A model generated the notes under the pieces. The model worked only from the letters and a program-made list of their open reading frames with translations, had not been told where the DNA came from and did not search any database. DNA of 64,000 bases from Polyangium mundeleinium (lineage in GTDB: Bacteria > Myxococcota_A > Polyangia > Polyangiales > Polyangiaceae): the NCBI RefSeq assembly GCF_028369105.1, contig NZ_JAQNDO010000001.1, positions 11,440,501 to 11,504,500 on the forward strand, read 5' to 3'. Position numbers and translations under genes: made by a program. Within the stretch, counting starts at the first letter, position 1, and the number at the start of each line of letters is the position of its first letter. Below are positions 32,404 through 50,668 of this stretch, one piece after another.

Positions 32404-33657
32404 TCACGGCACGAGGATCTCATTGTCGAGTTTCTTTCCGATGGCGCGCAGGCGTGCATTGAGCTTTTGTCCTTGCACGGGAATGGCGCCTGAAAGTGCG
32501 GGCTGTAGCTTGCTGTAGAGCGGCGCCTCGGCAAGAACATCCTCGTCCGTATACATATCGGCTCGGGCAGGGAGCAGATACCGCGGGGGCGCTCCGTAGC
32601 GAGCCGGCAACAGCGAGCGTTTCACTTCCGCTGCGCTCGTGACATGAGCGATGAACGCGGTGGCATCGGGCAAGCAATTCTCGTCGCAGGTCGTCGAGAT
32701 GGTCAACATGTCTACCCACGCAAAGGGATGCGAACCCTTGTCGGAGAGCGGAAGCGGCTTCATCTCGATGTCCTCGAGGTCGAGGCATTCACCTTTTTGA
32801 CAGGATTCGCGTTGCTCCAACGCGATATAGTACAGACGCTCGGAGTATCCCGCGAGTGCTCGACCACGCTTTCTCGCAAATTGTCGCGCGTAGAAGCCGG
32901 TTGCCTCGTGATAATCGGAATCGCGGCACATGCCTGTGTCGCAGAGAGAGATGGCTCTCTGAAGATTTGCGGTCGCGCTGCTGAGAAGGCTTGTGTCAAG
33001 CAGATACGGTTCTGCAGCGGACAGGTCCCCGAGCTCATCAAGCGTGGCATCGAGGTACAGTTCTCCTAAGGTCGACTTGCCTTTCGCGTCGACCAGAAGT
33101 CCTTGATCCGGCGAATGGTTGGCTCCTATCACCGACTCGATATCTTTGAGCGTGCCCGCGCTTTCGAGCTGGTCTCCCGATCGATAGAATAGGTAGTTCG
33201 TGCAGGCCCAATGGGGCACGCCCCACCACTCATTCTCGACTTTCGCGGAGTTCTCCGCCACCTGAACCATGGTGTTCGCGGGGGGCACCAGTTCCTCTGG
33301 AAGCGCCTGGATCCGCTTCTGGTCTATGAAGTCCGCCAAGAAGACGCCGTCGAGCTCGTAGACTTGTGCGTCGGTATTTGTGATCGCCTGGGGATCGTCC
33401 TCGTTGTAGTAATTGGAAGAAAGGTCGATGATCTGCAGGTCAACGTCGGGGTGGTCGCGCTCGAAGCTGTGTTCGATATCAGAAAAGAGGCTCTGGTAAT
33501 CAGGCAGGAAGGGGTAGAGGGCGACTGTCAACGTACGTCGAGGAGCAGGAGCACAGTCTGCGTTCGCGTTCGTCGAGGCGGCTGGGGTCGCCGTACATCC
33601 GAGAAGGAGCACGAAGGCGGCTGTCAGGGCAGTGCAACGAATGGTGGTTGATGGCAT
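32404..33657 (-). CDS. Thiaminase-I-like (thiamine pyridinylase) lipoprotein
   Basis: A 417-aa exported protein with a periplasmic-binding-protein fold. MPSTTIRCTALTAAFVLLLGC is a lipoprotein signal (C21). RTLTVALYPFLPDYQSLFSD is the usual first strand, and VPHWACTNYLFYR (Cys152) matches the catalytic-Cys segment of thiaminase I, which swaps the thiazole of thiamine for another nucleophile. The acid/base Glu should lie in the C-terminal lobe; I cannot fix it by eye. Alternatively this is a thiamine-binding relative without activity. Several additional Cys (CDTGMC, CQKGEC) suggest disulfides. Lead gene of the AT-richer island block. Confidence 0.7.
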   Translation of the reverse strand: MPSTTIRCTALTAAFVLLLGCTATPAASTNANADCAPAPRRTLTVALYPFLPDYQSLFSDIEHSFERDHPDVDLQIIDLSSNYYNEDDPQAITNTDAQVYELDGVFLADFIDQKRIQALPEELVPPANTMVQVAENSAKVENEWWGVPHWACTNYLFYRSGDQLESAGTLKDIESVIGANHSPDQGLLVDAKGKSTLGELYLDATLDELGDLSAAEPYLLDTSLLSSATANLQRAISLCDTGMCRDSDYHEATGFYARQFARKRGRALAGYSERLYYIALEQRESCQKGECLDLEDIEMKPLPLSDKGSHPFAWVDMLTISTTCDENCLPDATAFIAHVTSAAEVKRSLLPARYGAPPRYLLPARADMYTDEDVLAEAPLYSKLQPALSGAIPVQGQKLNARLRAIGKKLDNEILVP

Positions 33658-34261
33658 GACGTCTCTCCCGTCTCTCAGTTTCCGTCGGTCAAACGATCAC
33701 TGCTGTCATTTCCGAAGCTCTTCCGCGCCTGGCGAGAAGGCTTTTCGCATCTGCCCAACGACCGCTTCTGCCGCAACGCGAAGCGGACCGCTTCGGGCAG
33801 CGTCGCCGCGCCAACCGCGCGAAGTTCCGCGTACGCCCGGCAAAGTGAGCCCACTTGATCGGTGACGGGCGAAGACCCCCCCCACGAGCGTGGCTCGCTG
33901 ACCGGAATCTGCCAACACCACCCAGGCTCACAACAGCAAGGATCTCACAGCCCGTGCAGGATCTACTAGAGAAATCCAAACCCCTCCGCTAGCACACGGC
34001 ATGCCGTGTCCGCTGCTGGGAATCCACGTCCCGGGCAACCCGGGTGGGGGGACCGCGTGAGCGGTGCGTTCATCGCGGGGAGCAGGCTGCCGGTCGCGAT
34101 GGCCGTCGTGGGGCGCGTCCAGCCGCCCGTAGCAGCCCATGTCTCGTTGCCATGGCAAAACATCACGCGGTCACCGTGATCCGCCGCTGTTCCAGCTCCG
34201 CCGCGTCGAAGTGCCGCACGGGGCCCGGGGGGCGGTTTGGGAGATAGAACGGATCGTTGCG
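33658..34261. other. Intergenic stretch, no supported gene
   Basis: Only arginine/proline-rich open frames are present. One (33966-34265, - strand) starts in an ATGA overlap with the next gene's stop, but its translation (PKPPPGPRAALRRGGAG...) does not look like protein. A 12-bp palindrome TTGCCATGGCAA sits at 34147-34158, within an 18-bp box (34140-34157) that is 16/18 identical to one arm of the dyad at 44776. Confidence 0.5.
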
Positions 34262-34675
34262 TCATCGCACCGCGACCTCCTCGAACGTCGTCCTCGCGGC
34301 GATGCCCTCTTCGCTCAGGTTGAGGAGGATCGGCAATGTCTCTTGTTGCCAATCCTCGTTCGCGCCGCGGCGGACGGTGACGGGAGCTCCGGGGACACCG
34401 AGGTAAACCGCGTCCACGATATCCATGATGACGTAGAAACAATTGTCGTTGGCGAACCGCATCCGTGTGAAGTCCATCCGGATCGACGCGAAGGCGGCTT
34501 CGGCTAGGATCCGGCCGAGCTCTTCGAGGAAGCTCCACAGGCAGCGATAGGGATTGTCGACCCGAAGGACGCCCTCGAACGTCAGCACGAGACGATCCTC
34601 GTCATCCCGAGCAGCCACCACCTCGAAGACGGCGAGTTCGCCAGCCATCACCGCGCCGCGCGTCAAGACCTTCAT
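34262..34675 (-). CDS. Hypothetical regulator-like protein (slr1659/STAS-like candidate)
   Basis: A 137-aa protein from MKVLTRGAVMAGELAVFEVV (ATG at 34675). The middle (FASIRMDFTRMRFANDNCFYVIMDIVDAV) and end (WQQETLPILLNLSEEG) recall the slr1659-type proteins that resemble STAS anti-anti-sigma domains, with a conserved-looking aromatic/Asn patch. I cannot confirm this without alignment. No usual partner (slr1658-like) is present. Transcribed away from the metal-oxidation operon. Confidence 0.5.
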   Translation of the reverse strand: MKVLTRGAVMAGELAVFEVVAARDDEDRLVLTFEGVLRVDNPYRCLWSFLEELGRILAEAAFASIRMDFTRMRFANDNCFYVIMDIVDAVYLGVPGAPVTVRRGANEDWQQETLPILLNLSEEGIAARTTFEEVAVR

Positions 34676-34792
34676 CGGTCCCCAGCATACAGGATGCGCT
34701 ACGGTCTCCGCCATATCCGGCGGCCCGATCCACCACGACGACGGCCCTCCCGTCGCGCGATGGATGAGATGAGCGACATCGCGCGGGTGGAG

Positions 34793-34813
34793 GAATTGCG
34801 TTTTGCGCAATTC
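34793..34813. repeat. Hairpin GAATTGCG/CGCAATTC in an intergenic region
   Basis: Perfect 8-bp arms (34793-34800, 34806-34813) with a five-base loop, followed by CTTCCAAAAAGG. Further right, CGGGGC/GCCCCG (34876-34890) forms a second short hairpin. They lie between the divergent gene at 34675 and the operon start at 34998, with no T-run on the + strand. Either could be a regulatory dyad; the evidence is only symmetry. Confidence 0.35.
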
Positions 34814-34997
34814 TTCCAAAAAGGTCCAGGGCTGGCCCTGGTTCGGGTCGCGGGGCGAACAGCCCCCGCGGGGTCCGGGGCAGCGCCCCGACAAGGCGCA
34901 CCTGGAGGCGGCTCCGGAGGCGCCTGACCGAAGATGCGGCAAGCGCACGGCAGCTCTTCAACATCCAAGTCGCCCGAACCTGGAGACAGTGGTTACC

Positions 34998-37022
34998 ATG
35001 GAACGGAATTCTGTCGTGCAATGGGGGCGGCGGCGGCTTTGCCTCCGAGCCCTGGCGGAGCGACACGCGCTCGTCCTTTTGCTCGCCTCCTGGCTGCTGC
35101 ACACAGGCGGCTGCGCGAGGCAGGATCCCAAGGAAAAGCCCTCGCTCCCGGCGGCCGCGGGAGAAAGCGCGGGCGCGCCTTCGGCCCCGGTGTCCGTCGA
35201 GGTCGCAGAAAATGGCCTGACGATTGCGTGGTCCGCGACGTTCGAAGACGGCGCGACGAACGCCGCCGGCGCGTGGCGGGTGGCCCGCGCGAGGCTCTCC
35301 GTGATGGACGCCGCGACGGGCGCTGCGCAGGTCGGCCTCCGGCCCCGCGTATGGCTGTCCGCACGGAAAGAAGGGGGCACGAAGCTCGATCACGAGGCTT
35401 GCCGAAACCTCGTCGCGTCCTTCGCCGGGGGGTTGCTCTCCGCGCAGCCTGCTTCGGTCCTCGACGGATACCTCGTCCTTGCGCTCAATGAAGACCCGAG
35501 CCTCTCGATCATCGACCCGCGCGTCGCCCTCGCGCGCACGAAGCTCCAGAGCCTCGTCGCCCTGCCCGGCCAGGCTGCGGACTGGGCCGCGGCGCCGGAG
35601 GGCACTTCGGTCTTCGTGACGATCCCGGAGCGCGACGTGGTCGCCGAGGTGGACGTGCTCCGCGGCCGCGTGCGCAGGAACCAAGACGTCGGCGACCACC
35701 CGACGCGCATCGTGCCCCGCGGCAATACACGCTCGTTCTGGGTCGCCAATGACGGCGACGGGACCGTGAGCGTGATCGACGGGGAATCGCGGGCGAAACG
35801 GAAGACGTTGGACGGGGGCGCAGGACATCAGGAAATCGTCTTCATCGCGGGGGGGCGGCGCGCCTGGGTATCGGCGTCGGGCAGCGAGACGATGAAGGTC
35901 TTCGACGCTGAACACGGCGAGCCCCTCGCCGAGGTCAACGTGGGCCGAGGTGTCGTCGCCCTCGCGGGCAGCGACGAGGCAGCCATGATCCTCGCCGTGC
36001 GCGACAATGGCGAGCTCGTCGTCGTCGACGAAACCAGCCGGGCCGTGACCCGGCGAATCCCCGTGGCTCGCGGCGGCGCGTCGATCGCATTCGCGCCCGG
36101 CGGCAGGTTCGCCTGGCTGGCCCAGCGGGAGGCGGGCGTGGTGCACGTGTTCGATGCGTCCCAGGGCAAGATCGTGCAGACGACGAGAAGGCTGTCCCGC
36201 CCGGATCACGTCTCCTTCACGCGGCATTTCGTGTACGTGCGGGAGCTCGGGTCGAGCCACCTCTCCATGTTCGGGCTCGCGGGCGACCCGGCGAACGAGC
36301 CGCCGAAGCTCGTCCAGGTCGCCATGGGGCAAGCGGCGCCGGACGGGGACTTCGCGCCGAGCTTCGCGGCTCCGATGGCCCCGTTGCCCGAGGGGGGCGG
36401 AATGATCGTCGCGCACCCCGTGGACCGGACGCTTTATGGATACGCCGAGGGGATGATGGCGCCCATCGCGACGCACCCCGCCTACGGGCGCTCGCCGCGC
36501 GCCGTGCGAATCGTCGATCGTTCGCTCCGCGAAATTGAACCGGGGGTCTACGAAGCGCCGTTCCGCATGGACGGCGGCGGCGTCCACGACGTGGCCGTGC
36601 AAATCGACGGACCCCGCAAGGTCACGGCTTGCCTCGAATGGTCCCTCCCGGACGGGGAATCGCGCCCGGGCGAGGAGGCATTCGGCATCGAGCCCCTCTT
36701 CGATCCTGGCGAAAAGCTCGTCGCGGGTCAGGCAACGACCCTCCGCTTCCGGCTACGGGAGCCCATCGCCCCGCGCGCGCTCACGGCGCTCTTCGCGCAG
36801 GATCCGACGGGATACGTGTGGCGCGGCGTGCCGCGGGCCGAGGGAGATTCGGTCTATGCGATCACGGTGAAACCCTCCACGCCCGGCCGATATCGGCTCG
36901 TCGTGCGTCCGAACCAGAAGGCGGGGCCTTTGATGCGCCGCGCGACATGGACCCTCGGCGTCCGGGCAGGCGACTCCGAGGTTCTGCCCGCGAGCGAAGA
37001 GGGAAAGGGGGGTCGAAAGTGA
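34998..37022 (+). CDS. Beta-propeller (YncE-like) lipoprotein, first gene of the oxidase operon
   Basis: A 674-aa exported lipoprotein (lipobox at C39, LLHTGGC). A small N-terminal Ig-like domain is followed by a ~350-residue seven-bladed propeller of the YncE/cytochrome d1 type (SFWVANDGDGTVSVIDGES, AWVSASGSETMKVFDAE, VVHVFDASQGKIV). The C-terminal part (~150 aa) is another beta-sandwich (DVAVQIDGPRKVTACLEW, PSTPGRYRLVV) resembling FixH/CopC-type immunoglobulin folds. The final bases overlap the next gene (GTGA). Likely a periplasmic or surface component of the copper-dependent oxidation module. Confidence 0.75.
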   Translation: MERNSVVQWGRRRLCLRALAERHALVLLLASWLLHTGGCARQDPKEKPSLPAAAGESAGAPSAPVSVEVAENGLTIAWSATFEDGATNAAGAWRVARARLSVMDAATGAAQVGLRPRVWLSARKEGGTKLDHEACRNLVASFAGGLLSAQPASVLDGYLVLALNEDPSLSIIDPRVALARTKLQSLVALPGQAADWAAAPEGTSVFVTIPERDVVAEVDVLRGRVRRNQDVGDHPTRIVPRGNTRSFWVANDGDGTVSVIDGESRAKRKTLDGGAGHQEIVFIAGGRRAWVSASGSETMKVFDAEHGEPLAEVNVGRGVVALAGSDEAAMILAVRDNGELVVVDETSRAVTRRIPVARGGASIAFAPGGRFAWLAQREAGVVHVFDASQGKIVQTTRRLSRPDHVSFTRHFVYVRELGSSHLSMFGLAGDPANEPPKLVQVAMGQAAPDGDFAPSFAAPMAPLPEGGGMIVAHPVDRTLYGYAEGMMAPIATHPAYGRSPRAVRIVDRSLREIEPGVYEAPFRMDGGGVHDVAVQIDGPRKVTACLEWSLPDGESRPGEEAFGIEPLFDPGEKLVAGQATTLRFRLREPIAPRALTALFAQDPTGYVWRGVPRAEGDSVYAITVKPSTPGRYRLVVRPNQKAGPLMRRATWTLGVRAGDSEVLPASEEGKGGRK

Positions 37023-37621
37023 AGCGGCTCCTGGTCATCCCATTGCAGGTCTCGCTCGGGCTCCTGGCCGCGCTCGCCGCGGCGCCCGTGGTGGCCGAGG
37101 CGCCGCCAGCGTCGAGCGCGAAGGCCAACGAAGACGCGGCGGCGCGCTATTTCACCAATACGAAGCTCGTGGATCAGGACGGAAAGGTCCGCCATTTCCA
37201 CGACGACCTCCTGCGGGGAAAGAAAGTGCTCATCAACGTCGCCTTCACGTCGTGCAAGGGCGCGTGTCCCGCCATGACGGCGAACCTCGCGAAGGTGCAG
37301 CGTCTCCTCGGCGCGCGGGTGGGCAAGGAGATCCACATCATCACCGTCACGGCCGACCCGGAGAACGACACGCCGGCCGTACTCAAGCAGTACGCCGGTC
37401 GGCACGGAGCCACGGCCGGATGGTACTTCCTGACGGGCGCACCGGACGACGTGAACAAGGTGCTCGGCCGCATCGGGGGCCTCTTGCGCAAGCCCGAGGA
37501 CCACGCGACGACCCTCTACGTCGGCAATCTCTCGACCGGCAACTGGGTGAAGACCCAGGCGACCTCGCGCCCCGAGGACATCGTCTATCTCGTCGACCAC
37601 CTCGACGACCCCAAGCGATGA
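37019..37621 (+). CDS. SCO1/SenC family copper chaperone (1)
   Basis: A 200-aa exported thioredoxin-like protein starting at a GTG that overlaps the preceding stop. The signal peptide ends near PVVAEA. It has the SCO copper site: CxxxC in TSCKGACPAM and the distal His in EDHATTLYVG. DPENDTP and WYFLTG are also family marks. SCO proteins insert copper or keep cysteines reduced during assembly of Cu oxidases. Its neighbours (a second SCO and a multicopper oxidase) indicate metallation of that oxidase rather than cytochrome c oxidase. Confidence 0.9.
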   Translation: MKRLLVIPLQVSLGLLAALAAAPVVAEAPPASSAKANEDAAARYFTNTKLVDQDGKVRHFHDDLLRGKKVLINVAFTSCKGACPAMTANLAKVQRLLGARVGKEIHIITVTADPENDTPAVLKQYAGRHGATAGWYFLTGAPDDVNKVLGRIGGLLRKPEDHATTLYVGNLSTGNWVKTQATSRPEDIVYLVDHLDDPKR

Positions 37622-38265
37622 GCATGGCCATTGCAAATCATCCGCTCCGGCACGCGCGCGCCCTGGTCCTCGTGGGTGCCGCCATACTCGCCGCGGGATG
37701 CGAGGGGGAAAGCAAGGGCGCGCCGCCCGTCCCGCTCCCGACCCCGGGCGCCGACGTCCGCATCGCGCCCCTCGCCGAGGTTGTCGTGCCAGACGTGGAG
37801 CTCGTCGATCAGGACGGGCAAACGGTGCCGCTGCGCGCCGCCCTCGGCCCGGGCGCTTTTGCGATCCAGTTCGTCTTCACCACGTGCACGACGATCTGCT
37901 CGCCGATGACGGCCGTCTTCGCGCGGCTCGCCCACGACCTCGGCGATTCGTTCGGCAAAGACGTACGTCTCGTGTCGCTCACCCTCGATCCGGCCATCGA
38001 CGGCCCCGAGGCGTTGCGCCGTTACGCGGACCTATTCGGGCGGCGGGAGGGCTGGACGTTCCTCACGGGGAGGCCGGATCGTTTGTCGCGGGTCCTTCGC
38101 GCGCTCGGCGGCGATGCGAGGGTCAAGGAGGAGCATCGCCCGCTCACCGTGATCGGAGACGGCCAGGGCAAATTCGTCCTCGTCGACGGGCTCGCCTCAC
38201 CCGCGCGCCTGCGCGCCGAGATCGCGGCGCTGCGTCGTCGCGCGGAGACCACGGAGGAGCCGTGA
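37618..38265 (+). CDS. SCO1/SenC family copper chaperone (2), lipoprotein
   Basis: A 215-aa protein starting in an ATGA overlap. It is a lipoprotein (lipobox AAGC) with the SCO domain: TTCTTICSPM (CxxxC), LTLDPAIDGPEALRRYAD, WTFLTGRPD and a downstream His in KEEHRPLTVIGD. Clearly diverged from SCO1(1), so the pair is not a recent duplicate and may have separate jobs such as copper delivery and thiol reduction. The stop overlaps the next gene's GTG. Confidence 0.9.
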   Translation: MSMAIANHPLRHARALVLVGAAILAAGCEGESKGAPPVPLPTPGADVRIAPLAEVVVPDVELVDQDGQTVPLRAALGPGAFAIQFVFTTCTTICSPMTAVFARLAHDLGDSFGKDVRLVSLTLDPAIDGPEALRRYADLFGRREGWTFLTGRPDRLSRVLRALGGDARVKEEHRPLTVIGDGQGKFVLVDGLASPARLRAEIAALRRRAETTEEP

Positions 38266-39836
38266 TCGAGCGCTGGGGGATGAGCGCCGTCGTGCTCATG
38301 GGCGCTTGCTTGCTCCTCGGAGGGAGCGAAAGCCGCCCCGAGGCGCCGCGCGACCGAGGCGCTTCATGCGCGAGCCTCGGCCCCGCCGCGCGGCGCGGCA
38401 AGGCGATCTATCACCAGGGCCGGGGCGCCGAGGGAGAGCCCATCGTGGGGCTCGTCGGCGACGGCTCCGCCATGCTCTCGGGGGCGAGCGCGGCGTGCGC
38501 GCGTTGCCATGGTTTCTCGGGGGAAGGGACCGAGGAGGGAGGCATCGCCGCGCCCGCGCTCACGCCCGAGAGCCTCTTTTCGCCCGATGCACGCAAGGGC
38601 CGCCCCGGACACGACGATGCGACGCTCCTCGCCGCGATCCGGGACGGGCACGTCGGTGCGCGGCGACTCGGTCCGGCCATGCCGAGGTTCACGCTCGATA
38701 CGTCGGCCCTCGCGGATCTGAGAGCGTACCTCGTCTGCCTCGGTCACGAGCGCGAGCCGGGCGTCTCCGAGGGCGTGATCCGTGTCGGCGCAGCGTGGCC
38801 GATGTCGGGCCCAGCAATGGCGCAAGGGGCGGCGATGGCCGCGGCCGCCGCCAACGTATTCGCCGAGATTGAGGCCCAGGGCGGGGTGTTTCGACGTCGC
38901 ATCGAGCTCGTGCTCGAGGATTCGAATGGCCCCGGAGGCCCGCATGCGGCGGCAGCGCGCCTCGCCCGGCGCGAGGTCTTCGCCATGATGTCGAGTCCGA
39001 TCGCGGCCGAGCCACTCCGGGACGACGAAGGCGAGGAGATCCCCCATCTCGCGCCCCTCGGGCCGACGCCGCCGGACGCCGAGCGCGTATTCCAGGTGCG
39101 ACCAGGCCTCGATATGCTGGCGCAGATCGTGCTCGCGCACGCGGCCACGTCCCGGCGAAGCCCCGCATTCCACGTGATCGCTCCCGACGACGCCGCGGGC
39201 AGGCTGCTCCGGGACGGACTCGCGCGCGGCCAGGCAGCGCGGCGAGACCTGCCCGCGCCCTCCGAATGGCTCTTCGTGCCAGGCTCCCTCGACGCGACGG
39301 CGGCGGCCGCGGAGGCGCGCGCGCGTGTGCCCGACGCCATTCTCTTCGGCGGGACCGCCGAGGAGCTCGGCGCGTTCGTCCGGGCGCTCTCCTCCGCGGA
39401 CGAGGTGCCGATCTATGCCCCGTCCGCGATCCTCGGCGATGCGCCCGCCGCGCTCGACCCACGCGCCGCGCGGCGGACGCTCTTCGTGCACGCGGGCCCC
39501 GTCGACGATCGCGTCTCCGCCAAGGTCCGGGACCTCCGCGCCCGCCTGCAAGCGCGAGGCGCCCCGGCAGGACGGATCGGGCTCGCGATATCGGCGGAGG
39601 TCGCCGCCCGGACCCTCATCGAGGGGCTTCGCCGCGCAGGGGGTCGTCCGACACGGCGAGCCTTTGTCGCGGCGCTCGAGACGCTGCGCGATTTCGAGGC
39701 CGGCCTCTCGGCGCCGCTGAGCTTCAGCCGCGGGAATCACGTCGGGGTGACGGGCGCGTACGTCGTCCGCGTCGATCCGATCGCGCGAGAGATCGTGCGG
39801 GTATCGGAATGGCTCACCGTCGCCCCCCACCGGTGA
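38262..39836 (+). CDS. Cytochrome c domain fused to an ABC-type leucine-binding-protein domain
   Basis: A 524-aa exported protein with a GTG start overlapping the previous stop. After a hydrophobic N-terminus comes a short cytochrome c domain with heme motif CARCHGFSGEG (C79, C82, H83) and an axial Met in LGPAMPRFT. Residues ~155-520 form a periplasmic-binding-protein type I (Leu/Ile/Val-binding-like) domain (VIRVGAAWPMSGPAMAQG, VFRRRIELVLEDSN). So one chain carries a heme and a ligand-binding module. It may pass electrons between the multicopper oxidase and a ligand-bound donor or acceptor (inference). Confidence 0.8.
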   Translation: MIERWGMSAVVLMGACLLLGGSESRPEAPRDRGASCASLGPAARRGKAIYHQGRGAEGEPIVGLVGDGSAMLSGASAACARCHGFSGEGTEEGGIAAPALTPESLFSPDARKGRPGHDDATLLAAIRDGHVGARRLGPAMPRFTLDTSALADLRAYLVCLGHEREPGVSEGVIRVGAAWPMSGPAMAQGAAMAAAAANVFAEIEAQGGVFRRRIELVLEDSNGPGGPHAAAARLARREVFAMMSSPIAAEPLRDDEGEEIPHLAPLGPTPPDAERVFQVRPGLDMLAQIVLAHAATSRRSPAFHVIAPDDAAGRLLRDGLARGQAARRDLPAPSEWLFVPGSLDATAAAAEARARVPDAILFGGTAEELGAFVRALSSADEVPIYAPSAILGDAPAALDPRAARRTLFVHAGPVDDRVSAKVRDLRARLQARGAPAGRIGLAISAEVAARTLIEGLRRAGGRPTRRAFVAALETLRDFEAGLSAPLSFSRGNHVGVTGAYVVRVDPIAREIVRVSEWLTVAPHR

Positions 39837-39893
39837 TCTCGGGCCATTGCGCTTTTTCGTAGGCACATCGAATCCATGTGATGGGAGTATACC

Positions 39894-42800
39894 GTGCCCA
39901 GACTTGCACCTTCTTTGTTGCGATGTATGGCGTTCGTCCTCCTGGCGTCGGGGTGCGGAGGGAGCGGCCCCGACGGGCCACCGCCCGGCGCGGGGACGGC
40001 AGGGGCGGCCTCGCTCGCCGTCGTCGATCCGCCGAGCGAGCCCTCGCCGGGCCCCCCCCACGGAGGCCGCACGATCGTCGCGCGCGTGGTCGCGCTCGAT
40101 CAGGTGTACGTATACAATAGGTTTGGCTCGTTCAACCCCGACGGGATGATCTTCGCCCTCGAGCGGGACGTCGTCCCCATTGACGACGCGAAGCCGATCG
40201 GTCCGGGCAACGCCATGCTCGCGCCCGACAAGCGACCGAGGCCGCTCGTGCTTCGCGTCAACGTCGGGGACGAGCTCGTCGTTCATTTCAAGAACCTGCT
40301 CGCCCCCACGGTGGGCGACATCTCCCCCGACGCGGAGGTCCCCTTCCACGTGGGAGGCGACATCGGATCGGATTCGACCGCGACGAGGCGCGCGTCGTTC
40401 CACGTGAACGGGCTCCAGGTCTTCGATCAGAAATCGCTGGCCGGGAACGTCGGGAAAAACGCGCCCGCCCTCGCGGCGCCGGGCCAGACCCGCACGTATC
40501 GGTTCCTCGCCGACCGTGAAGGCACGTTCCTCGCGCACAGCGGCGGGGCCATGACGGGCGGCGAGGGTCTCGGGGGGCAAACCGTGCTCGGGCTCTTCGG
40601 CGCGGTCCACGTCGAGCCGAGAAACGCGGTCTGGTACCGCTCGCAGGTCACGGGCAAGGAACTCGCGGCCGTGGCGACGTACGACAAGGACCCGCTCCTG
40701 CCGCCCCGCATCGATTACGACGCGACGTATCCCGATGGTACGCCCATCCTTCGTATCCTCGACGACCGAGACGGCGAGCTGGAGATCGTGCACGGCGATC
40801 TCTACGCCATCATCACCGGCTACACGCACACCGAAGCGGGGACCACGAACTCCAAGGATCAGGGCCATTTCCGCGAGATGACGGTGCTCTTCCACGACGA
40901 GCTCAAAGCCGTGCAGGCGTTCCCCGAACTCGACGAGGACCCGAGCCTCCACGGCGTGCGCGACGGCTTTGGCATCAACTACGGCTCCGCGGGGCTCGGC
41001 GCGGAGCTGCTCGCCAACCGCGCCCGCCTCGGGCCCGCGGCCGATTGCGCCGAATGCAAATTCGAGGAGTTCTTTCTCTCGTCGTGGGCGAACGGCGATC
41101 CGGCGATCCTCGTGTCGCGGGACGAGGAGGGGCGAGCGCTCGGAGCCCTCTTCCCGGAGGATCCCTCGAACGTCCACCACGCCTACCTCGGGGATCCGGT
41201 CCGCATCCGGAACCTGCACGCGGGGCCCAAGGAGACGCACGTCTTCCACCTGCACGCCCACCAATGGCTCCAGTCCCCGGGCCATGACGACGCCATGGCC
41301 CGCGACTCGCAGACGATCGGCCCCGGCGCGGCCTTCACCTACGACCTCCTGTTCGGGGGAGCAGGCAACCGCGTCCTCACGCCCGGCGACGCCATTTTCC
41401 ATTGCCACCTCTATCCCCATTTCGCGCAAGGCATGTGGGCGCTGCTCCGCGTGCACGACGTCTTCGAGAACGGATCGCCGTCGCGGAGGCTGCCGGACGG
41501 AGAGATCTCGAGCGGCACCCCGACGCCCGCCGTCGTCCCCATCCCCGAGCGTGGAATGGCGCCCATGCCCACCTACGAGCCCACGCTGGTCGTCCAGGGG
41601 AACAAGAAGGTATGGCGCCCGGCGATGCCAGGATATCCCTTCTACGTCCCCGCCGACGCGGGGCACAGGCCGCCGCAGCCGCCGCTCGACATGGTCTTCG
41701 ACGGCGGCTTGCCCCGGCACAAGATCGACGCGGTCCCCGACGACGCGATCGTGCGGGGCAGCGGGGTCGCGCGGTTCGACGTGGAGATCCTCGAGGCGGA
41801 CCTCGTGCTCCTGCCGCAAAATGGAACGGCCTCGGAGCAGGGGGCCATGGCCTTCCACGCCGGCACGTTCCCTGGCGGCAAGCCAGACGCAACGCTTTAC
41901 GGCTGGACCGGCGCGAGTTACCCCACCCGCACGCCTCTCGGTCAGGTCGCGCGTTTCTTCGTCAATGGCAGGCCGCCGGCGATGGGCGCGCCGTTCGCCG
42001 ACCCCTGCCCGAAAAACGTCCCGCTGCGCACGTTCAACTTCGCGGTCGTGGAAATCGACGGCCTGCTCAACGACGCCGGCTGGCACGACCCGCAGCTCCG
42101 GATGCTGGTGCTCGAGCAGGACCTGCCCGCGACCTACGCAGGGACGCGGCCCCCGGAGCCGCTGTACATGCGGGTGAGCTCGAACGACTGCATTCATGCC
42201 GAGGCCACGAACCTGCTCCCCAAGGTGCTGGAGGAGGACGATTTCCAGGTCCGCACCCCCACGGACACCGTGGGCCAGCACATCCACCTCGTGCAATTCG
42301 ACGTGATGAGCTCGGACGGAGGGGCGAACGGGTTCAATTACGAGGACGGTACGTTCGCCGCGGGGGAGGTCGAGGAGCGCATCGCAGCGGCGAACGCGAG
42401 CGGCGGCGCCATCACGCCGAAAGGGAACCGCGTCTTCCTCGCCCCCAAGGCGCACCCGCGCATCCCCAAGGCCTTCGCCGCGCAGACGACGGTGCAGCGC
42501 CAGTGGGCCGCGCCGATCCTCGACGAGATCGGCCGGGATCGCACGAGCCGCACCGTCTTCACGCACGACCATCTATCGGCGTCCTCGCACCAGCAGCACG
42601 GCCTCTATGGCGCGCTCGTCATCGAGCCCGAGGGCTCGACCTTCCGCGATTCGAGGACGGGGCAAGCCTTCGGCACACGAAAGGACGGCGGGCCGACGAG
42701 CTTCCGCGCCGACGTCACGAGGGGCGACGGCACGTCGTTCCGCGAGTTCAACATCGCCTTCGCGGACTTCGCGCTCGCCTATGACGCCTACGGCGAGCCC

Positions 42801-44666
42801 GTGAACCCGCCCGGGACCGCCGAGGCGCCTCTGCCGCTCGCGGTCACGCACGAGCCCTTCCCGCCGGAGGCCATCTCCGCCGAGGACCCGGGGACCATGC
42901 TGATCAATTACCGGAACGAGCCCATCCCGCTGCGCATCGGGAAGCCCGGCCCGGACGGCACGCTCGTGCAAAAAGACGGCCCGGTCGGGGAGATGCACAA
43001 CGTCTTCCGCTCGGATCTGCATGGCGAGCCCTCGACGCCGATCCTCGAAGCGTACCCCGAAGACGAGGTGCAGATACGATTGATCCAAGGGGCCCACGAG
43101 GAGCAACACGTCTGGACCCTGCACGGAAACAAGTGGCTCTACGAGTTCGCCGACCCGGAGAGCGGATACATGAACAGCAATCCGATCGGGATCTCCGAGC
43201 ACCTCGAATTCGTCATGCCCGGCAATCAATGGTCGATGAGCACGGGGGCGGACCTCGTCGATTACCTTTACGCAAGCGCGCCGACGGACGACCTCTGGAA
43301 CGGGATGTGGGGGCTCATGCGCTGCTATGGGGAGCGAAAGCCCTGGCTCCGGCCGCTGCCCGGATCTACCTGGGCGGGCGTCCCCATGGGCGGCTCGTAC
43401 GACACGGATGCGCGCGTTTGCCCCGCGGGCGCGAATGTGCGCGAATACGACGTCGTCGCCATCACCGCCGCGGACAACCTGCCGGACGGACGGCTCACGT
43501 ACAATGAAGACTTCGACCTCTACGATCCGGAGGCCATCCTCTTCGTGCGCGAGGAGCACCTCTCCGATCTCCGCCATGGGCTCCGGCGCCCCGAGCCGCT
43601 CATCCTGCGCGCGGCCGCGGGGGAGTGTATTCGCGTGACCTTGCGCAACGAGCTGCCCCATGTCTTGCCCCAGACCCCGCACTGGAACTACCACCCGCCG
43701 ATCACCGACGGGTTCAATGTGAACCAGGTGCGAAAATCGACGCACGTCTCGCTGCACCCGCAGCTCGTGACCTACGACGTGGCCCTCTCCGACGGCGCGA
43801 ACGTCGGCCACAACCCTCCGCAGACCGTGGCTCCGGGAGAGAAGCGCACGTACGTCTGGTACGCCGGCGATTGGCAGGACAAGAAGCCCCGGCCCATCGA
43901 ATTCGGCGCGATCAACCTGCGCAACCTGGCGGACGTCGTGCACGGCGGGGCCCACGGCGGCGTGGGCGCGCTCGTGATCGAGCCGGAGCTCGCCACCTGG
44001 GCGACCGATCCCGGCACGGAAGCACAAGCCACCGTGACGCACCCCGGCCTCGGGGGGGCGAAATCGTTCCGCGAGCACGTCCTCCTGCTCCAGGACGACG
44101 TACCCATGCGGTCGGACGATCCTCGGTTCCGCTGCGAAAATGGGGATCTCAACTGCGGCAACGCGATCCGCAACCTCGGCGGCGAGGACGACGCCGAGGA
44201 TACGGGGCACAAGGCGTGGAACTACGCCACCGAGCCTATCTGGGCGCGCCTCGGCCTCCGCCCCGAGACCGCTTTCAACGTGTACAACGAGCTCCAGCTC
44301 GGCGACATCCACAACTCGAACGTGTTCGGCGACCCGGCCACGCCGATCCTGCAGGCGAAGGCGGGGCAAGCCTTGCGGATCCGGCAGCTCCAGCCCTCCG
44401 GGCATGCGCGGCAGCACGCCTTCACGTTGTGGGGCCACGAATGGATCGACCGCCCGTTCCTTCTCCACTCGACCGTGATCGGGCCGAACCCCGACTGGTT
44501 CGTGGTCTCCACGCAAGGCGGGGCCAGCGTCCAGACGGCGTACAACTTCTTGCCCCTTTACGGCGCCGGCGGGCAATTCGGCGTAGTCGGCGATTTCCTG
44601 TACCGCGACGAGGGCAGCTTCGGATACACGAACGGGTGCTGGGGATTCCTCCGGGTCAGCCATTGA
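39894..44666 (+). CDS. Giant multicopper oxidase (1590 aa)
   Basis: A lipoprotein (MAFVLLASGC) with several cupredoxin domains, over twice the length of ordinary laccases. Canonical copper motifs are present: HVFHLHAHQW (~447) and FHCHLYPHFAQGMW (~500, HCHx3Hx4M) form the trinuclear/T1 ligands. Further His-rich stretches are HIHLVQFD (~796), THDHLSASSHQQHG (~889), HVWTLHGNKW (~1069) and HAFTLWGHEW (~1504). This multi-domain pattern resembles manganese oxidases of the MnxG/MoxA sort, but the metal substrate cannot be read from sequence. The GTG at 39894 has GGGAG upstream. It is the last gene, preceded by two SCO chaperones. Confidence 0.85.
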   Translation: MPRLAPSLLRCMAFVLLASGCGGSGPDGPPPGAGTAGAASLAVVDPPSEPSPGPPHGGRTIVARVVALDQVYVYNRFGSFNPDGMIFALERDVVPIDDAKPIGPGNAMLAPDKRPRPLVLRVNVGDELVVHFKNLLAPTVGDISPDAEVPFHVGGDIGSDSTATRRASFHVNGLQVFDQKSLAGNVGKNAPALAAPGQTRTYRFLADREGTFLAHSGGAMTGGEGLGGQTVLGLFGAVHVEPRNAVWYRSQVTGKELAAVATYDKDPLLPPRIDYDATYPDGTPILRILDDRDGELEIVHGDLYAIITGYTHTEAGTTNSKDQGHFREMTVLFHDELKAVQAFPELDEDPSLHGVRDGFGINYGSAGLGAELLANRARLGPAADCAECKFEEFFLSSWANGDPAILVSRDEEGRALGALFPEDPSNVHHAYLGDPVRIRNLHAGPKETHVFHLHAHQWLQSPGHDDAMARDSQTIGPGAAFTYDLLFGGAGNRVLTPGDAIFHCHLYPHFAQGMWALLRVHDVFENGSPSRRLPDGEISSGTPTPAVVPIPERGMAPMPTYEPTLVVQGNKKVWRPAMPGYPFYVPADAGHRPPQPPLDMVFDGGLPRHKIDAVPDDAIVRGSGVARFDVEILEADLVLLPQNGTASEQGAMAFHAGTFPGGKPDATLYGWTGASYPTRTPLGQVARFFVNGRPPAMGAPFADPCPKNVPLRTFNFAVVEIDGLLNDAGWHDPQLRMLVLEQDLPATYAGTRPPEPLYMRVSSNDCIHAEATNLLPKVLEEDDFQVRTPTDTVGQHIHLVQFDVMSSDGGANGFNYEDGTFAAGEVEERIAAANASGGAITPKGNRVFLAPKAHPRIPKAFAAQTTVQRQWAAPILDEIGRDRTSRTVFTHDHLSASSHQQHGLYGALVIEPEGSTFRDSRTGQAFGTRKDGGPTSFRADVTRGDGTSFREFNIAFADFALAYDAYGEPVNPPGTAEAPLPLAVTHEPFPPEAISAEDPGTMLINYRNEPIPLRIGKPGPDGTLVQKDGPVGEMHNVFRSDLHGEPSTPILEAYPEDEVQIRLIQGAHEEQHVWTLHGNKWLYEFADPESGYMNSNPIGISEHLEFVMPGNQWSMSTGADLVDYLYASAPTDDLWNGMWGLMRCYGERKPWLRPLPGSTWAGVPMGGSYDTDARVCPAGANVREYDVVAITAADNLPDGRLTYNEDFDLYDPEAILFVREEHLSDLRHGLRRPEPLILRAAAGECIRVTLRNELPHVLPQTPHWNYHPPITDGFNVNQVRKSTHVSLHPQLVTYDVALSDGANVGHNPPQTVAPGEKRTYVWYAGDWQDKKPRPIEFGAINLRNLADVVHGGAHGGVGALVIEPELATWATDPGTEAQATVTHPGLGGAKSFREHVLLLQDDVPMRSDDPRFRCENGDLNCGNAIRNLGGEDDAEDTGHKAWNYATEPIWARLGLRPETAFNVYNELQLGDIHNSNVFGDPATPILQAKAGQALRIRQLQPSGHARQHAFTLWGHEWIDRPFLLHSTVIGPNPDWFVVSTQGGASVQTAYNFLPLYGAGGQFGVVGDFLYRDEGSFGYTNGCWGFLRVSH

Positions 44667-44775
44667 TAAGGACCTCCAGGATACGCTGGCCGATTTGGCC
44701 GAGGTGCCGCGCATCGTGGTGGCCTCCGCGAAATGGTTCGGCGAGCGGCCGCGCGGTGTCACGCGCCTGATACAT

Positions 44776-44813
44776 TGTCACGTTGCCATGACAGCCTTCT
44801 GTCACGGCAACGT
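44776..44813. promoter_or_regulatory. Dyad upstream of a sigma-54 promoter (candidate activator site)
   Basis: ACGTTGCCATGACAG (44780-44794) and CTGTCACGGCAACGT (44799-44813) match at 14 of 15 positions around four bases; the outer bases TGTC extend the left arm. Its centre is about 130 bp before the predicted sigma-54 start at 44926, a normal distance for an enhancer-binding site. It could instead be a weak hairpin terminator of the oxidase operon (114 bp after the stop), but no T-run follows. Confidence 0.5.
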
Positions 44814-44899
44814 ACCAGTCCTCTCGGAGAGGCGTGGGATCCTCGTCTGGCGCGTACGCGCCGTCGGCACCGAGGTCTCTGTCCGCAACGTACGGGCGT

Positions 44900-44915
44900 C
44901 GGCACGTGGCTTGCT
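44900..44915 (+). promoter_or_regulatory. Sigma-54 promoter for the secreted serine-hydrolase-like gene
   Basis: CGGCACGTGGCTTGCT fits the consensus TGGCACG-N4-TTGC in every position but the first, with exact spacing (GG 44901-44902, GC 44913-44914). Predicted start about 44926, leaving a 42-nt leader with a strong ribosome site before the ATG at 44968. Confidence 0.72.
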
Positions 44916-44967
44916 GGAAGTCGCGTAGGCACATCACGTCCTATCCGCTCCTCTGGAGGACAATTCA

Positions 44968-47883
44968 ATGAACCGGACGCGCAAGCTGAATGCTGCAACG
45001 GTTGGGCTATTTCTACTGCCCGGCGTCATGACATGGTCATGCTCGCAGGGACCGCAGCCAGGACTCGAATCGATTTCACCGGCCGAGAACGTCGCTTCGG
45101 CGCAGCAGGCCGCGGTTATCCCCTCCATCTTCTCGGACAACTACGATGACCTGGGCTACTTGTTGTCGTCGACGCATTGTGGGACGCGATTCTCGAAGCG
45201 CACGGACCGGGAGCACGAGGCGGGGTGCATCGCGGCCGTCGTTCATGGAACCCGGATCATCGCCATTGGCGCGTCAGGGCTCGCGTACAAGAACCGCTCG
45301 TTCTGGAATGCGCCCAACGCGACCAAGGACATGGAAATCAACGACGCTTTTCAGTTGGGCTCCATCTCCAAGGTCTACACCATCCTTGCGCTGTCGAAGC
45401 TCATCGAGTCGGCCCCGACGCTCAACGGCCACACGCTCACGTGGGAGTCGACCCTCGCCGACGCGATGCCGTGGGTGAACCTCAACACGCCGGAATGGAA
45501 CTTCCGGAAGCTGAAGAAGCTCAAGCACCTGGCCTCGCACCGAGCAGGATACTGCAAAGAGCCGAGTTTGGCGGACGCTGGGTATTGCTCGACGAGAGGA
45601 GAGGCATGTACAGCGGCGAACGAGGCGACCGTTTGTGACAGCGGAACGTGCCGCGCCGACGGCACGTGCAGCCAGAAGATTTGCGACGCGGATGCCGACT
45701 GCAACGTGGGCGGGGACTGTGTGACCCCCCAAAAAGGAAAGGCATACCCCGCGCCCACGGCGGCCTACTGGAAGGCGCGCACGCCTGCGCAGATGCGGCA
45801 AGAGCTCTCGTTGTTCTACAACGACAGCACAAGCGGTGTCCCCAACTGCCCGATTCCCATCACCGTCGACTACAACGACGGGGACGAAAACGATGACGGC
45901 GTTTACTCGAACACCTCCATCTTCATGGCCGCGGCGGTCATCGACTACTGGTCGCAGGTCGGCCTGGAGACCTACATCCAAACCGCACAACCCTGGGGGC
46001 CGAGCGTGTCCAACACCTTCCTTGGATACCCGGCGAGCCTGGACCGAGATTCGACGATGTTCACCGGAACGGCGGCGGAAAAGGCGAATTGGGTTGGCAA
46101 TCTGTTCCGGGAGACGCACTCGGTCCTCGTATCGAAGAACTACGCCATCGAGAACGGCTACAGCGTACCGGACGCCAACGCCTGGACATCCGGCCGCTGG
46201 GTCCCGCCTGCGCCGCAGGGATCTTATTCCGTCACCGCCGACGATGCAGCGAGGTTCTTGATTCGCATGAACCGCGACCTTTCGCCGGAAATCAAGAGGA
46301 TGACGAGGGACCCGTCTTTCTTCTCGAGCACGGGTCGAAACTTGGCGCTGAGCCGATCGAACTCGACCGACCTGAACTTCGTCGAGAACCGGACCTTCCT
46401 GAGCCATCGAGGCGTGCTGTACGGGAGTACATGGTATCAGTTCGTGCCCGAGGCGGATATCGCCTACATCGCCTTCGTGCACAACACGGGCAAGGATACC
46501 GGCGCCGTCGGCAAGGTCATCGCCGATCTCAAGCGGGCCTACCCGTACAAGAACAACCTCGGGACATGCGATGGCCTGGCGGCATGTCAGATCAACGAGG
46601 ATTGCGACAGCGGTTTCTGCGACAACGGTACGTGTTACGAGCAGCGGTGTGACGGGGACGAAGACTGTCCGGTCTCCCTCTCGTGCGTGGTCGACACCGA
46701 GCTCGCGGTGTCCCACGGGTGCACGGACACCAATGGTGGCGGCGTCAAGAATGTGCAGCGGTTCTATACGAACCCGAACCAGGCGCTGAGCGGCACGAAG
46801 ATGTTCGGCTGCTCCGGCGAGGTGACCTGGCAAAATCGCGCGAGCCTCTGTGCGCCTGGGTTCCACGTTTGCGACGCAAGCGAATACGTGAACCTGAATA
46901 CGGACAACGAGCGCCCCCTCTACAACTACTGGACGGACGATGCCCTCGGATATCGCGGAGCAGCCGCGGGCGGAATGCCGCCGTCCGGCAATTGTACGGT
47001 TGGCACGGGCACGGCCTACATTCCGTGCCCGACCGGCAAAGGGCCGATGCGCGTCACGACGGACAACACGACCGACGCGCTCGGCAGACAGGTGGACATC
47101 ATTCAATGTGGGCTCGACGGGAGCGTACAGAACAAGTGGTTCGGAGGCTGCGGCACGGCCACGACCAACAGGGCGGGCACCCTCTGCTGCGGCGACATGG
47201 CTTATGTGCCGCCGACGCCGGAGCCTTCTCCGCCTGGGCCGCCGGACGACTGCCCGTCCGAGGGCTGTGGCACCGTCGAGGGCGGGTTGTGCGCGACCGT
47301 CGACCAGGGGCCGCCCCTCGACCAGATGGATGAGTATTGGCATCCGGACGGCAATTTTGCGCAGAACAAATATTGCCTGGACGACTATCCCGATACGGGC
47401 ATCGAGCGCGTGTGCGTCGCGTATGGCACCAATCCCAACGAACACGTCGGCATTTGCCGCACGTGCACGAACGAGACGAAGTGGCCCGGCTGCGAGTGCG
47501 ATCCGAACCACGTGGATTCGTGCGGCGCGCAAAGCCCCGAGCTCATGTGCATCCCGACGACGGGCTACAACAGCAACGGGCTAGGTACGTACTCGTCGGG
47601 GAAGTGCGTCCTGGTGAGCGAGCCTTTGCCTTCGTGGGATTGCCAGGCTGACTGTACGATGATTTACGGCAACACGGGCGCCTGCTATCACCGCGAAGAA
47701 GGTGGCCTGTACGCGATGTGCCTCGACGCGCTCGACGGCCCCGACGGCATCACATGCGCGACGATGGGGACGGTTTGGAACGGCACGCAGTGCGTGAACG
47801 AGTGCGCATCCACCGCTCAATGCCACCTGAGGGGGTATCCGAGCGAGTTCGTTTGCAACGCAGAAGGCCGCTGCGTTCTGTAA
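44968..47883 (+). CDS. Secreted serine-hydrolase (beta-lactamase/DD-peptidase-like) with Cys-rich inserts
   Basis: A 971-aa exported protein, probably lipidated at C25 (MTWSC). The penicillin-binding fold is suggested by SxxK in QLGSISKVYT (S132-K135), a Tyr-Ser-Asn in GVYSNTS (~312) and a C-terminal SHRGV (~479). Cys-rich repeats interrupt and follow the domain (CTAANEATVCDSGTCRADGTC, CDGLAACQINEDCDSGFCDN, then several more), as in myxobacterial surface proteins. It starts at a clear GGAGGA ribosome site. Class C beta-lactamases act on cell wall or esters; the real substrate is open. Expected to be under sigma-54 control. Confidence 0.72.
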   Translation: MNRTRKLNAATVGLFLLPGVMTWSCSQGPQPGLESISPAENVASAQQAAVIPSIFSDNYDDLGYLLSSTHCGTRFSKRTDREHEAGCIAAVVHGTRIIAIGASGLAYKNRSFWNAPNATKDMEINDAFQLGSISKVYTILALSKLIESAPTLNGHTLTWESTLADAMPWVNLNTPEWNFRKLKKLKHLASHRAGYCKEPSLADAGYCSTRGEACTAANEATVCDSGTCRADGTCSQKICDADADCNVGGDCVTPQKGKAYPAPTAAYWKARTPAQMRQELSLFYNDSTSGVPNCPIPITVDYNDGDENDDGVYSNTSIFMAAAVIDYWSQVGLETYIQTAQPWGPSVSNTFLGYPASLDRDSTMFTGTAAEKANWVGNLFRETHSVLVSKNYAIENGYSVPDANAWTSGRWVPPAPQGSYSVTADDAARFLIRMNRDLSPEIKRMTRDPSFFSSTGRNLALSRSNSTDLNFVENRTFLSHRGVLYGSTWYQFVPEADIAYIAFVHNTGKDTGAVGKVIADLKRAYPYKNNLGTCDGLAACQINEDCDSGFCDNGTCYEQRCDGDEDCPVSLSCVVDTELAVSHGCTDTNGGGVKNVQRFYTNPNQALSGTKMFGCSGEVTWQNRASLCAPGFHVCDASEYVNLNTDNERPLYNYWTDDALGYRGAAAGGMPPSGNCTVGTGTAYIPCPTGKGPMRVTTDNTTDALGRQVDIIQCGLDGSVQNKWFGGCGTATTNRAGTLCCGDMAYVPPTPEPSPPGPPDDCPSEGCGTVEGGLCATVDQGPPLDQMDEYWHPDGNFAQNKYCLDDYPDTGIERVCVAYGTNPNEHVGICRTCTNETKWPGCECDPNHVDSCGAQSPELMCIPTTGYNSNGLGTYSSGKCVLVSEPLPSWDCQADCTMIYGNTGACYHREEGGLYAMCLDALDGPDGITCATMGTVWNGTQCVNECASTAQCHLRGYPSEFVCNAEGRCVL

Positions 47884-48676: not shown

Positions 48677-48790
48677 GGATTCCGGCCGTCCGCGCAGGGA
48701 TCCGGGGCGGAGCGCGGTCGACCCGCGGCGAGCGAGGGGCGGCAGGTGTCCCCGCCGTGCGGCCAAAACTCGCGCGGACAGGTCGAACCG

Positions 48791-50668
48791 ATGATCTATC
48801 GAGAGATACAACGAACACCCAGCTCCGATGGCCTCCTCGGATTGACACGCCTGCTCCACAAGACACACGCGGAACGGGCGGCAACGGGATCACAGACCGT
48901 GATAGGGTGGCAGCTCCGTATGTCGCGCCATGATTTGCTCCCCGCGCTGCTCGGCCGGTTGATGGCAGCAGCTTGCTTCGAGGACGCCGCGACGGCTGCG
49001 CTCGAGGCGATCCTCGCTTGCGCGGAGGAGGCGATCGCCAAGAGCCGCTTCGCGACGAGCGCACGTCTGCTCCGCGCCGTGGTGCACCTCCGGCCGAGCG
49101 ATGGATACCAGCGCCTCTTCGGCATCGAGCACCGCACCCGCGCGCAGGTCGAGGGCACGGGCTACCTCACCTCCGCCAACGTCTGGCGGTGGGTCGCCGA
49201 GCATCGCTGCGCGGTCTCGATCGACGTGCAGCTCGGCGGCCTTCACGCGTGGCTGCCCGATGGGTCGGTCGTGCGACACGAGCCCCAGGAAGCGGCCGGC
49301 GTGCCGGGTTACGAGACGCGCCAGCGCATGCTCGGCCGCGACGCCACGCACGTGCACGTCGTCCCGCTGCGCACGCCCGGCGGCGGCGTGGGAGGCATGA
49401 TCGCGCTCGAAGCGCACGCCAAGGCCGCGATCGGGCGCGAGTTTGTGTGGGGCGACTGCGAGGAGCAGCTCGAGCTCGTCGCCAGCGCGGCGGCGCCTTA
49501 CCTCGGTGCCCTGCCACCGCGCCCGGTCCAGGGCGCGCAGACAGACGCGCTTTTGCCGGTCGTCGGACGGGCGACGGCAGGGCTCATCGAGGTCCTGCGC
49601 GTCTTCGCCCAACAAGAGGAGACCGTGCTCGTCAGCGGCCCGACCGGCACGGGAAAATCCCGGCTCGCGCGCTGGTGTCACGAGCAATCGCAGCGCAAGG
49701 GCAAGCCCTTCGAGACGCTCGATCTGCTCAGCGTGCCCGAGGAACTGCAGATGGCCGAGCTCTTCGGCTGGAAGCGCGGTGCGTTTACCGGCGCCACGAA
49801 GGATTCGGCAGGCGCAATCGCGCGCGCATCGCAGGGCACACTCTTCATCGACGAGATCGACAAGCTCTCGCTCAAGGCCCAGGCGGGCATGCTGCGGGTG
49901 CTCGAGGAGCGGCGCTACAGGCCCCTCGGCGACGAGGGCGCCGAGCAGCGCGCGGACGTGCGGTTCGTCGTCGGCACCAACGCGGACCTTCGCGCGCAGG
50001 TCCGCGCCGGCAAGTTCCGCGAGGACCTCTACTACCGCATCAATGTCCTTCCCGTGCGCCTATCGGCGCTCGCCGAGCGGCTCGACGAGCTGCCCTTGTG
50101 GGCCGAATACATGCTCGGCCGGAGGCACGAAGAGTCGGGCGGCGGCGCGGTGCGACTGGCGCGCGAGGCCATCGAGCTGCTGACGAGCGTGCCCTGGCCG
50201 GGCAACCTGCGGCAGCTCGACAACATCATTCGCAGAGCATACGCCATTTCGCTCTCGGATCGTGGCGGCGTGGGCAATGAGCTCGTGCTCGCGCGGCGGC
50301 ACGTGGAGCGGGCGCTCGCCTACGACGCCTCACCCGAGACGGGCGCGTTCGTCGAGCAGCTCTGGCGCGCGGCGAGCGCCTTCGTGCAGGAGGCCGAGCG
50401 GCGCGGGCCGAGCGCGGGCCCGCTCTCGCTCGATATGGCCGATGCCTTCCGGGGGCTGGTGCTCGTCGCCGCGGTGCAGCGGCGAGGTCGTGACGATGCC
50501 TTCGTGCTGCTCGGCCAGCAGCAGCTCCTCAAGAACAGAAACCACCACCGCGCGCTGAAGAGGGAGCTCGAGCGCGTGCGCGAGCTTTTGCGCGTGGTGG
50601 GCGGCGATGTCGATCCGGCGCTCGTTGCGGCACTAGATGCCGCCGAAGAATCCGGCGAAGGGCGTTGA
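48791..50668 (+). CDS. Sigma-54 enhancer-binding protein (AAA+ activator)
   Basis: A 625-aa activator. Residues 1-250 form a GAF-like sensor (RATAGLIEVLR precedes the AAA domain). The AAA+ domain has Walker A GPTGTGKS (283-290), the sigma-54-contacting loop GAFTGA (330-335), Walker B LFIDEIDK and FREDLYYRINVLPVRL. The C-terminal region lacks a classical Fis helix-turn-helix and instead has basic helices (HHRALKRELERVRELL), so DNA binding may be weak or unusual. ATG at 48791. A sigma-54 promoter lies 4 kb away at 44900, so it is a natural candidate partner. No receiver domain, so it is not a simple response regulator. Confidence 0.9.
   Translation: MIYREIQRTPSSDGLLGLTRLLHKTHAERAATGSQTVIGWQLRMSRHDLLPALLGRLMAAACFEDAATAALEAILACAEEAIAKSRFATSARLLRAVVHLRPSDGYQRLFGIEHRTRAQVEGTGYLTSANVWRWVAEHRCAVSIDVQLGGLHAWLPDGSVVRHEPQEAAGVPGYETRQRMLGRDATHVHVVPLRTPGGGVGGMIALEAHAKAAIGREFVWGDCEEQLELVASAAAPYLGALPPRPVQGAQTDALLPVVGRATAGLIEVLRVFAQQEETVLVSGPTGTGKSRLARWCHEQSQRKGKPFETLDLLSVPEELQMAELFGWKRGAFTGATKDSAGAIARASQGTLFIDEIDKLSLKAQAGMLRVLEERRYRPLGDEGAEQRADVRFVVGTNADLRAQVRAGKFREDLYYRINVLPVRLSALAERLDELPLWAEYMLGRRHEESGGGAVRLAREAIELLTSVPWPGNLRQLDNIIRRAYAISLSDRGGVGNELVLARRHVERALAYDASPETGAFVEQLWRAASAFVQEAERRGPSAGPLSLDMADAFRGLVLVAAVQRRGRDDAFVLLGQQQLLKNRNHHRALKRELERVRELLRVVGGDVDPALVAALDAAEESGEGR

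Follow-up and report, generated by a model that had tools for sequence, protein, structure and literature searches.

We identify in the window, the stretch of 64,000 nucleotides analysed here from the 13.25-Mb genome of Polyangium mundeleinium, a block of five plus-strand genes that is probably a myxobacterial operon of the mnxG family, of Polyangium type, in which a giant multicopper oxidase (MCO) would most likely oxidise Mn(II) and be loaded with copper by a pair of SCO proteins. The block spans positions 34998-44666 and, from its open reading frames, contains:

34998-37022, plus strand: gene 1, YVTN-type beta-propeller protein, 674 aa, probably exported (Pfam, NCBIfam and PDB matches)
37019-37621, plus strand: gene 2, SCO1/SenC copper chaperone A, 200 aa, GTG start (PF02630, 2.1e-20)
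37618-38265, plus strand: gene 3, SCO1/SenC copper chaperone B, 215 aa (PF02630, 5.8e-16)
38262-39836, plus strand: gene 4, fusion of a cytochrome c domain with a periplasmic binding protein of type 1 (LivJ-like), 524 aa, GTG start (PF13458, 3e-32)
39894-44666, plus strand: gene 5, giant MnxG-like MCO, 1590 aa, GTG start (NF041487, PDB 9bxa)

Genes 1 and 2, 2 and 3, and 3 and 4 overlap by 4 bp each, and 57 bp separate genes 4 and 5, which confirms the overlapping or nearly abutting arrangement described in the first-pass annotation; the Pfam, NCBIfam and PDB matches agree with the identities it had assigned to the five products. The same gene set, here adjacent and on one strand, is known from pseudomonads. 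The putative mnxG operon of Pseudomonas putida GB-1 is reported to contain mnxG, a YVTN propeller gene, two SCO1/SenC genes, a gene for an amide ABC substrate-binding protein with a cytochrome c domain and SurA (PMC11409713), a similar mnxG operon is described for Pseudomonas OF001 (PMC8218464), and the same five gene kinds, with a propeller of the YVTN/lactonase type, are reported also for strains MS-1 and DSV-1 (PMC11409713, PMC8218464). The annotation had taken the pairing of two SCO genes with an MCO as a sign of a self-contained extracytoplasmic oxidation system, perhaps for manganese. Such a system is favoured by the MnxG-like MCO and the GB-1-type gene set, while the pairing itself is no surprise since it is already in print for Pseudomonas, so that the Polyangium block adds one more example to a kind of gene set known before.

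The two arrangements differ in that mnxG is reported as the first gene of the GB-1 operon whereas the MCO gene is the last in the window, and in that the SurA-domain gene is absent from the window block: there is no gap to hold it within 34998-44666, and Pfam found none in the five flanking frames scanned. We take PputGB1_2447 to be mnxG of P. putida GB-1; the mnxE and mnxF partners of Bacillus MnxG are not among the five genes of the block. At 1590 aa, the window MCO is shorter than PputGB1_2447, given as 1944 aa (PMC3600357). Giant manganese-linked MCOs accompanied by a cytochrome c gene are also described for the Leptothrix mofABC and Rubrivivax A210 mof operons, the latter including a copper metallochaperone; unlike the window, these have a Mip-like MofB, and the available part of the source mentions no propeller or binding-protein fusion (PMC8218464). 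The manganese MCO gene mcoA of P. putida GB-1 is reported to adjoin an SCO1/SenC gene, as in the window, but with a single SCO and different further genes (PMC11409713).

The best NCBIfam match of the MCO is the MnxG model NF041487 (975.2 bits, E = 5.5e-293) and its best PDB match is the MnxG of 9bxa (E = 7.7e-131). The score lies far below the 3100 bits required by the NF041487 equivalog cut-off, which counts against an MnxG-type manganese oxidase. The window MCO and the 9bxa protein share several homologous stretches that together cover most of the length, and their copper motifs are permuted alike; the 9bxa protein is shorter, and we judge its source to be Bacillus from its length, 1227 aa, which is that given for the MnxG of Bacillus sp. 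PL-12 (PMC3600357). Pfam finds Cu-oxidase_3 and Cu-oxidase_2 domains in the window MCO, which is probably exported; by eye, its N-terminus resembles a lipobox. The copper-binding motifs are:

41238-41261, plus strand: HVFHLHAH, T1 His449 and trinuclear His452 and His454 (each in 80 of 80 rows, and in 81 of 81 with the gammaproteobacterial MnxG-like rows)
41400-41435, plus strand: HCHLYPHFAQGM, His503, T1 Cys504, His505, T1 His509 and axial Met514 (80 of 80 rows; Met in 79 of 80)
42279-42287, plus strand: HIH, trinuclear His796 and His798 (80 of 80 rows)
42564-42572, plus strand: HDH, trinuclear His891 and His893 (80 of 80 rows)

The laccase-type C-terminal motifs precede the N-terminal ones, as in MnxG. 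All twelve copper ligands are present in this permuted order, and in a MAFFT alignment (faster setting) of 79 relatives and the window protein, eleven of the twelve ligand columns are invariant (80/80) and the axial Met is found in 79 of 80 rows. An alignment of 81 rows, with three gammaproteobacterial MnxG-like sequences added and two short rows dropped, had the same outcome (Met in 80 of 81). The loss of T1 or T3 ligands, which the annotation had named as a point against its reading, is thus not seen, and long homology to MnxG, along with a full set of T1 and trinuclear ligands in the permuted arrangement, places the protein in the superfamily of MnxG-like giant MCOs. In its pairwise alignment with the window MCO, the 9bxa protein has Ala (HCHLYPA) at the canonical position of T1 His509, a His in all 80 aligned rows; its T1 site may be built differently.

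Both SCO proteins have the CxxxC motif and the distal copper-binding His of the SCO1/SenC family:

37253-37267, plus strand: SCO A CxxxC, residues 79-83, with partner His162 at 37502-37504
37885-37899, plus strand: SCO B CxxxC, residues 90-94, with partner His173 at 38134-38136

They match the Sco1 structures 1xzo and 1on4 with E-values of ∼1e-12 (SCO A) and ∼5e-12 (SCO B). Across 94 SCO domains, a few of them duplicates, the two cysteines are kept in 94 and 92 and the His in 93; neither SCO domain of locus L109 has CxxxC. Two SCO domains occur in 37 of the 53 SCO-bearing loci, and in 17 of these 53 a single reading frame encodes both (L059, L061, L064, L069, L074, L075, L077, L079, L082, L092, L093, L098, L101, L114, L115, L117 and L118), suggesting that the two SCOs act as a pair. 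In the SCO tree, first and second positions cluster, with 6 and 5 changes against ∼30 when shuffled. We rejected fixed clades of "first" and "second" SCOs, as support is weak for many branches and SCO A, the first in the window, sits in the half made up mostly of "second" SCOs, so that a division of labour cannot be read from the tree.

The fusion encoded by gene 4 has a haem c motif and an axial Met, as in class I cytochromes c:

38496-38510, plus strand: CARCH, residues 79-83, with the codon of axial Met140 at 38679-38681

Its binding-protein part is a Peripla_BP_6 domain (PF13458, 3e-32), and Pfam cytochrome c matches over the CXXCH fall just under their cut-offs (22.1 against 27 and 20.4 against 21.3 bits). 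CXXCH is present in 50 of 51 fusion hits, three of which are duplicates, and Cys79, Cys82, His83 and Met140 are invariant in an alignment of 22 members hand-chosen from these hits. A structure model (mean pLDDT 86.4, pTM 0.83) matches LivJ-type binding proteins with a best E of 8e-17; the 50 fold matches listed cover the binding-protein part and include no cytochrome. The few conserved columns of this domain leave its ligand specificity unreadable. A search of the genome at E ≤ 0.001 gave no second match to the fusion.

The propeller of gene 1 has weak Pfam and NCBIfam matches that stay under the cut-offs, among them TIGR03866 with an E-value of 6.3e-20; it matches the propeller of PDB 1l0q at 6.2e-22. 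The annotation had called it a lipoprotein, for which the sequence, by eye, offers a weak lipobox. TIGR03866 describes a propeller linked to PQQ-dependent catabolism, and a LivJ-like protein is likewise encoded in gene clusters for PQQ alcohol dehydrogenases; the propeller and the LivJ-like protein are possibly a helper pair shared with those clusters.

We compared the locus with its relatives. One scan of named genomes gave 108 stretches encoding an MCO relative, of which we kept the best 80, representing 79 distinct loci. The sample is not random, as the loci were found with the window's own MCO, and it includes some genomes twice and many metagenome bins whose titles may mislead: locus L072, titled Bacillota, is nearly identical to L080, titled Acidobacteriota. 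Partners were sought in the fetched stretch, up to ∼10 kb on each side of the MCO, with at least 80 bits required for a propeller homologue and two SCOs called from two frames or from one frame above 300 bits. We call testable the 56 loci that extend 8 kb or more downstream of their MCO. Of these, 52 have a propeller near the MCO, 41 an SCO, 29 two SCOs and 40 the fusion; 39 have all three partner types, an association that exceeds chance. On the strand of the MCO the counts are 50 for the propeller, 40 for SCO, 34 for the fusion and 33 for all three. With cut contigs included, 45 of the 79 loci have all three types. The co-conservation that the annotation had proposed to check therefore holds in most loci and breaks down in 17 of the 56, which lack at least one partner type; four lack all three (L066, L068, L073 and L088), so the partners are not obligatory.

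Gene order sets Polyangium apart. The MCO closes the gene block in the window, as it does in the two further named loci from Polyangium (L040 and L050), and these two are the only ones among the 59 named loci with the best propeller on the MCO's strand in which it lies 5' of the MCO; in the other 57 it lies 3'. In three further named loci the best propeller is on the opposite strand. Sorangium strains So ceGT47 and So ce26 and Minicystis rosea each have two MnxG-like loci (L041/L045, L051/L068 and L042/L049, respectively), some without nearby partners, and So0157-2 (L046) has two adjacent MCO frames.

The nearest named relative of the MCO is that of Polyangium fumosum DSM 14668, with 94% identity over the best segment. 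In a FastTree phylogeny rooted at the midpoint, the window MCO pairs with L040, L050 joins them next, and all three belong to a group of 12 rows, all Polyangiaceae; under this rooting, that group and the gammaproteobacterial MnxG-like rows sit far apart in opposite halves of the tree. These rows (L139-L141) are stand-ins taken from a search of 369 genomes of the class, and L139 (2422 bits) and L140 (2183 bits) are likewise under the 3100-bit cut-off. No protein above this cut-off was found in the 377 genomes of the phylum, in the 369 of the gammaproteobacterial class or in two smaller sets of 24 genomes and one genome. The order in L140 is MCO, propeller, a parvulin-like gene (by eye), SCO, SCO and cytochrome fusion. 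Within the phylum the MCO is patchy: eight of 377 genomes, the window's own included, have a match at E ≤ 1e-20. The genus is represented in this sample by three other genomes, of which two have none. A plasmid search returned 30 records, each below 60% identity. A phylogeny from 2013 had listed MnxG-like proteins from Sorangium and Stigmatella (PMC3600357).

Around the block, a protein with a Thiaminase-1 domain (6.9e-10) and, by eye, a lipoprotein-like start is encoded at 32404-33657 on the minus strand, and directly 3' of the operon (44968-47883) lies a gene whose 971-aa product has a domain of the beta-lactamase family (7.7e-9) and stretches that look rich in Cys. Within 34500-45000, we found no sigma-70-type promoter (0.5 expected) and six terminators, no clear excess over the 4.3 expected (sd 2.0). 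The consensus -24/-12 pattern of sigma-54 promoters, allowing up to two mismatches, matched 25 times in the 64-kb window against 18.6 expected, a count reached in 6 of 100 shuffles; none of the matches falls within 32700-39100, and hence none lies directly upstream of the operon. Myxobacteria carry many sigma-54 activator genes, and one (3.1e-52) is found at 48746-50668, ∼4 kb downstream of the operon. Manganese oxidation by P. putida GB-1 is reported to depend on a regulator of the sigma-54 type (PMC11409713).

Two other readings of the locus have to be weighed. The Polyangiaceae branch of this operon family could have another main substrate, such as Fe(II), Cu(I) or a phenolic compound, acting for example as a copper- or iron-detoxifying oxidase for which manganese is incidental. 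Multicopper oxidases are described as promiscuous for their reducing substrate (PMC3738974), which makes Fe(II) or Cu(I) possible for this enzyme too, and the deep split from the gammaproteobacterial MnxG-like rows, the score far under the equivalog cut-off and the two loci each in two Sorangium strains and Minicystis, which allow for specialisation, all point the same way. The enzyme nevertheless retains all of its copper ligands and the full set of partners, and we saw no feature specific to another substrate, so that we regard this alternative as rather unlikely. Our open-access literature search, as far as the texts were available, gave no account of a cultured myxobacterium oxidising manganese and no activity data for this MCO clade, and in the texts seen on the subject no manganese oxidase is assigned to Myxococcota.

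SCO proteins classically load the CuA site of cytochrome oxidase, and the pair could in principle serve the respiratory enzyme and merely adjoin the MCO. This is very improbable given that an SCO lies near the MCO in 41 of the 56 testable loci and that the five flanking frames scanned include no gene for cytochrome oxidase. The genome also has four other SCO-like genes, one of which outscores the operon pair (108 bits against 74 and 60); in a weak tree, three of the four branch apart from the operon SCOs, while the remaining one is placed within the operon group on a long branch that calls for caution.

From the kinship with MnxG and the gene set shared with the Pseudomonas operons, we favour Mn(II) as the substrate of the MCO. 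The enzyme, probably exported, would most likely act outside the inner membrane and turn Mn(II) into Mn(III)/Mn(IV) oxide, and from what is known of the family, electrons from Mn(II) would enter at the T1 copper and pass to the trinuclear cluster, where O2 would be reduced to water. The SCO pair most likely reduces and loads the copper sites of the MCO, with perhaps one protein as thiol reductant and the other as copper donor. The cytochrome c/binding-protein fusion would most likely carry single electrons during MCO assembly or turnover, and the propeller could be a scaffold that helps assembly or electron flow.

More speculatively, the SCO proteins could form an MCO-specific two-step copper relay, made of a reductant and a donor. 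Such a relay would have coevolved across many phyla with the giant oxidases of MnxG type, and Polyangiaceae would use it for a metal other than manganese. We consider this doubtful; if the relay does exist, giant MCOs would have a maturation and electron module of their own, defined by the fused SCO-SCO proteins and the binding protein that carries haem.

The mnxG gene set of pseudomonads recurs in records titled as Myxococcota-type, Acidobacteriota, Planctomycetota, Bacteroidota, Chlorobiota and Pseudomonadota. Within this family, the Polyangium operon would offer a compact case for testing the loading of a manganese oxidase by two SCO proteins.
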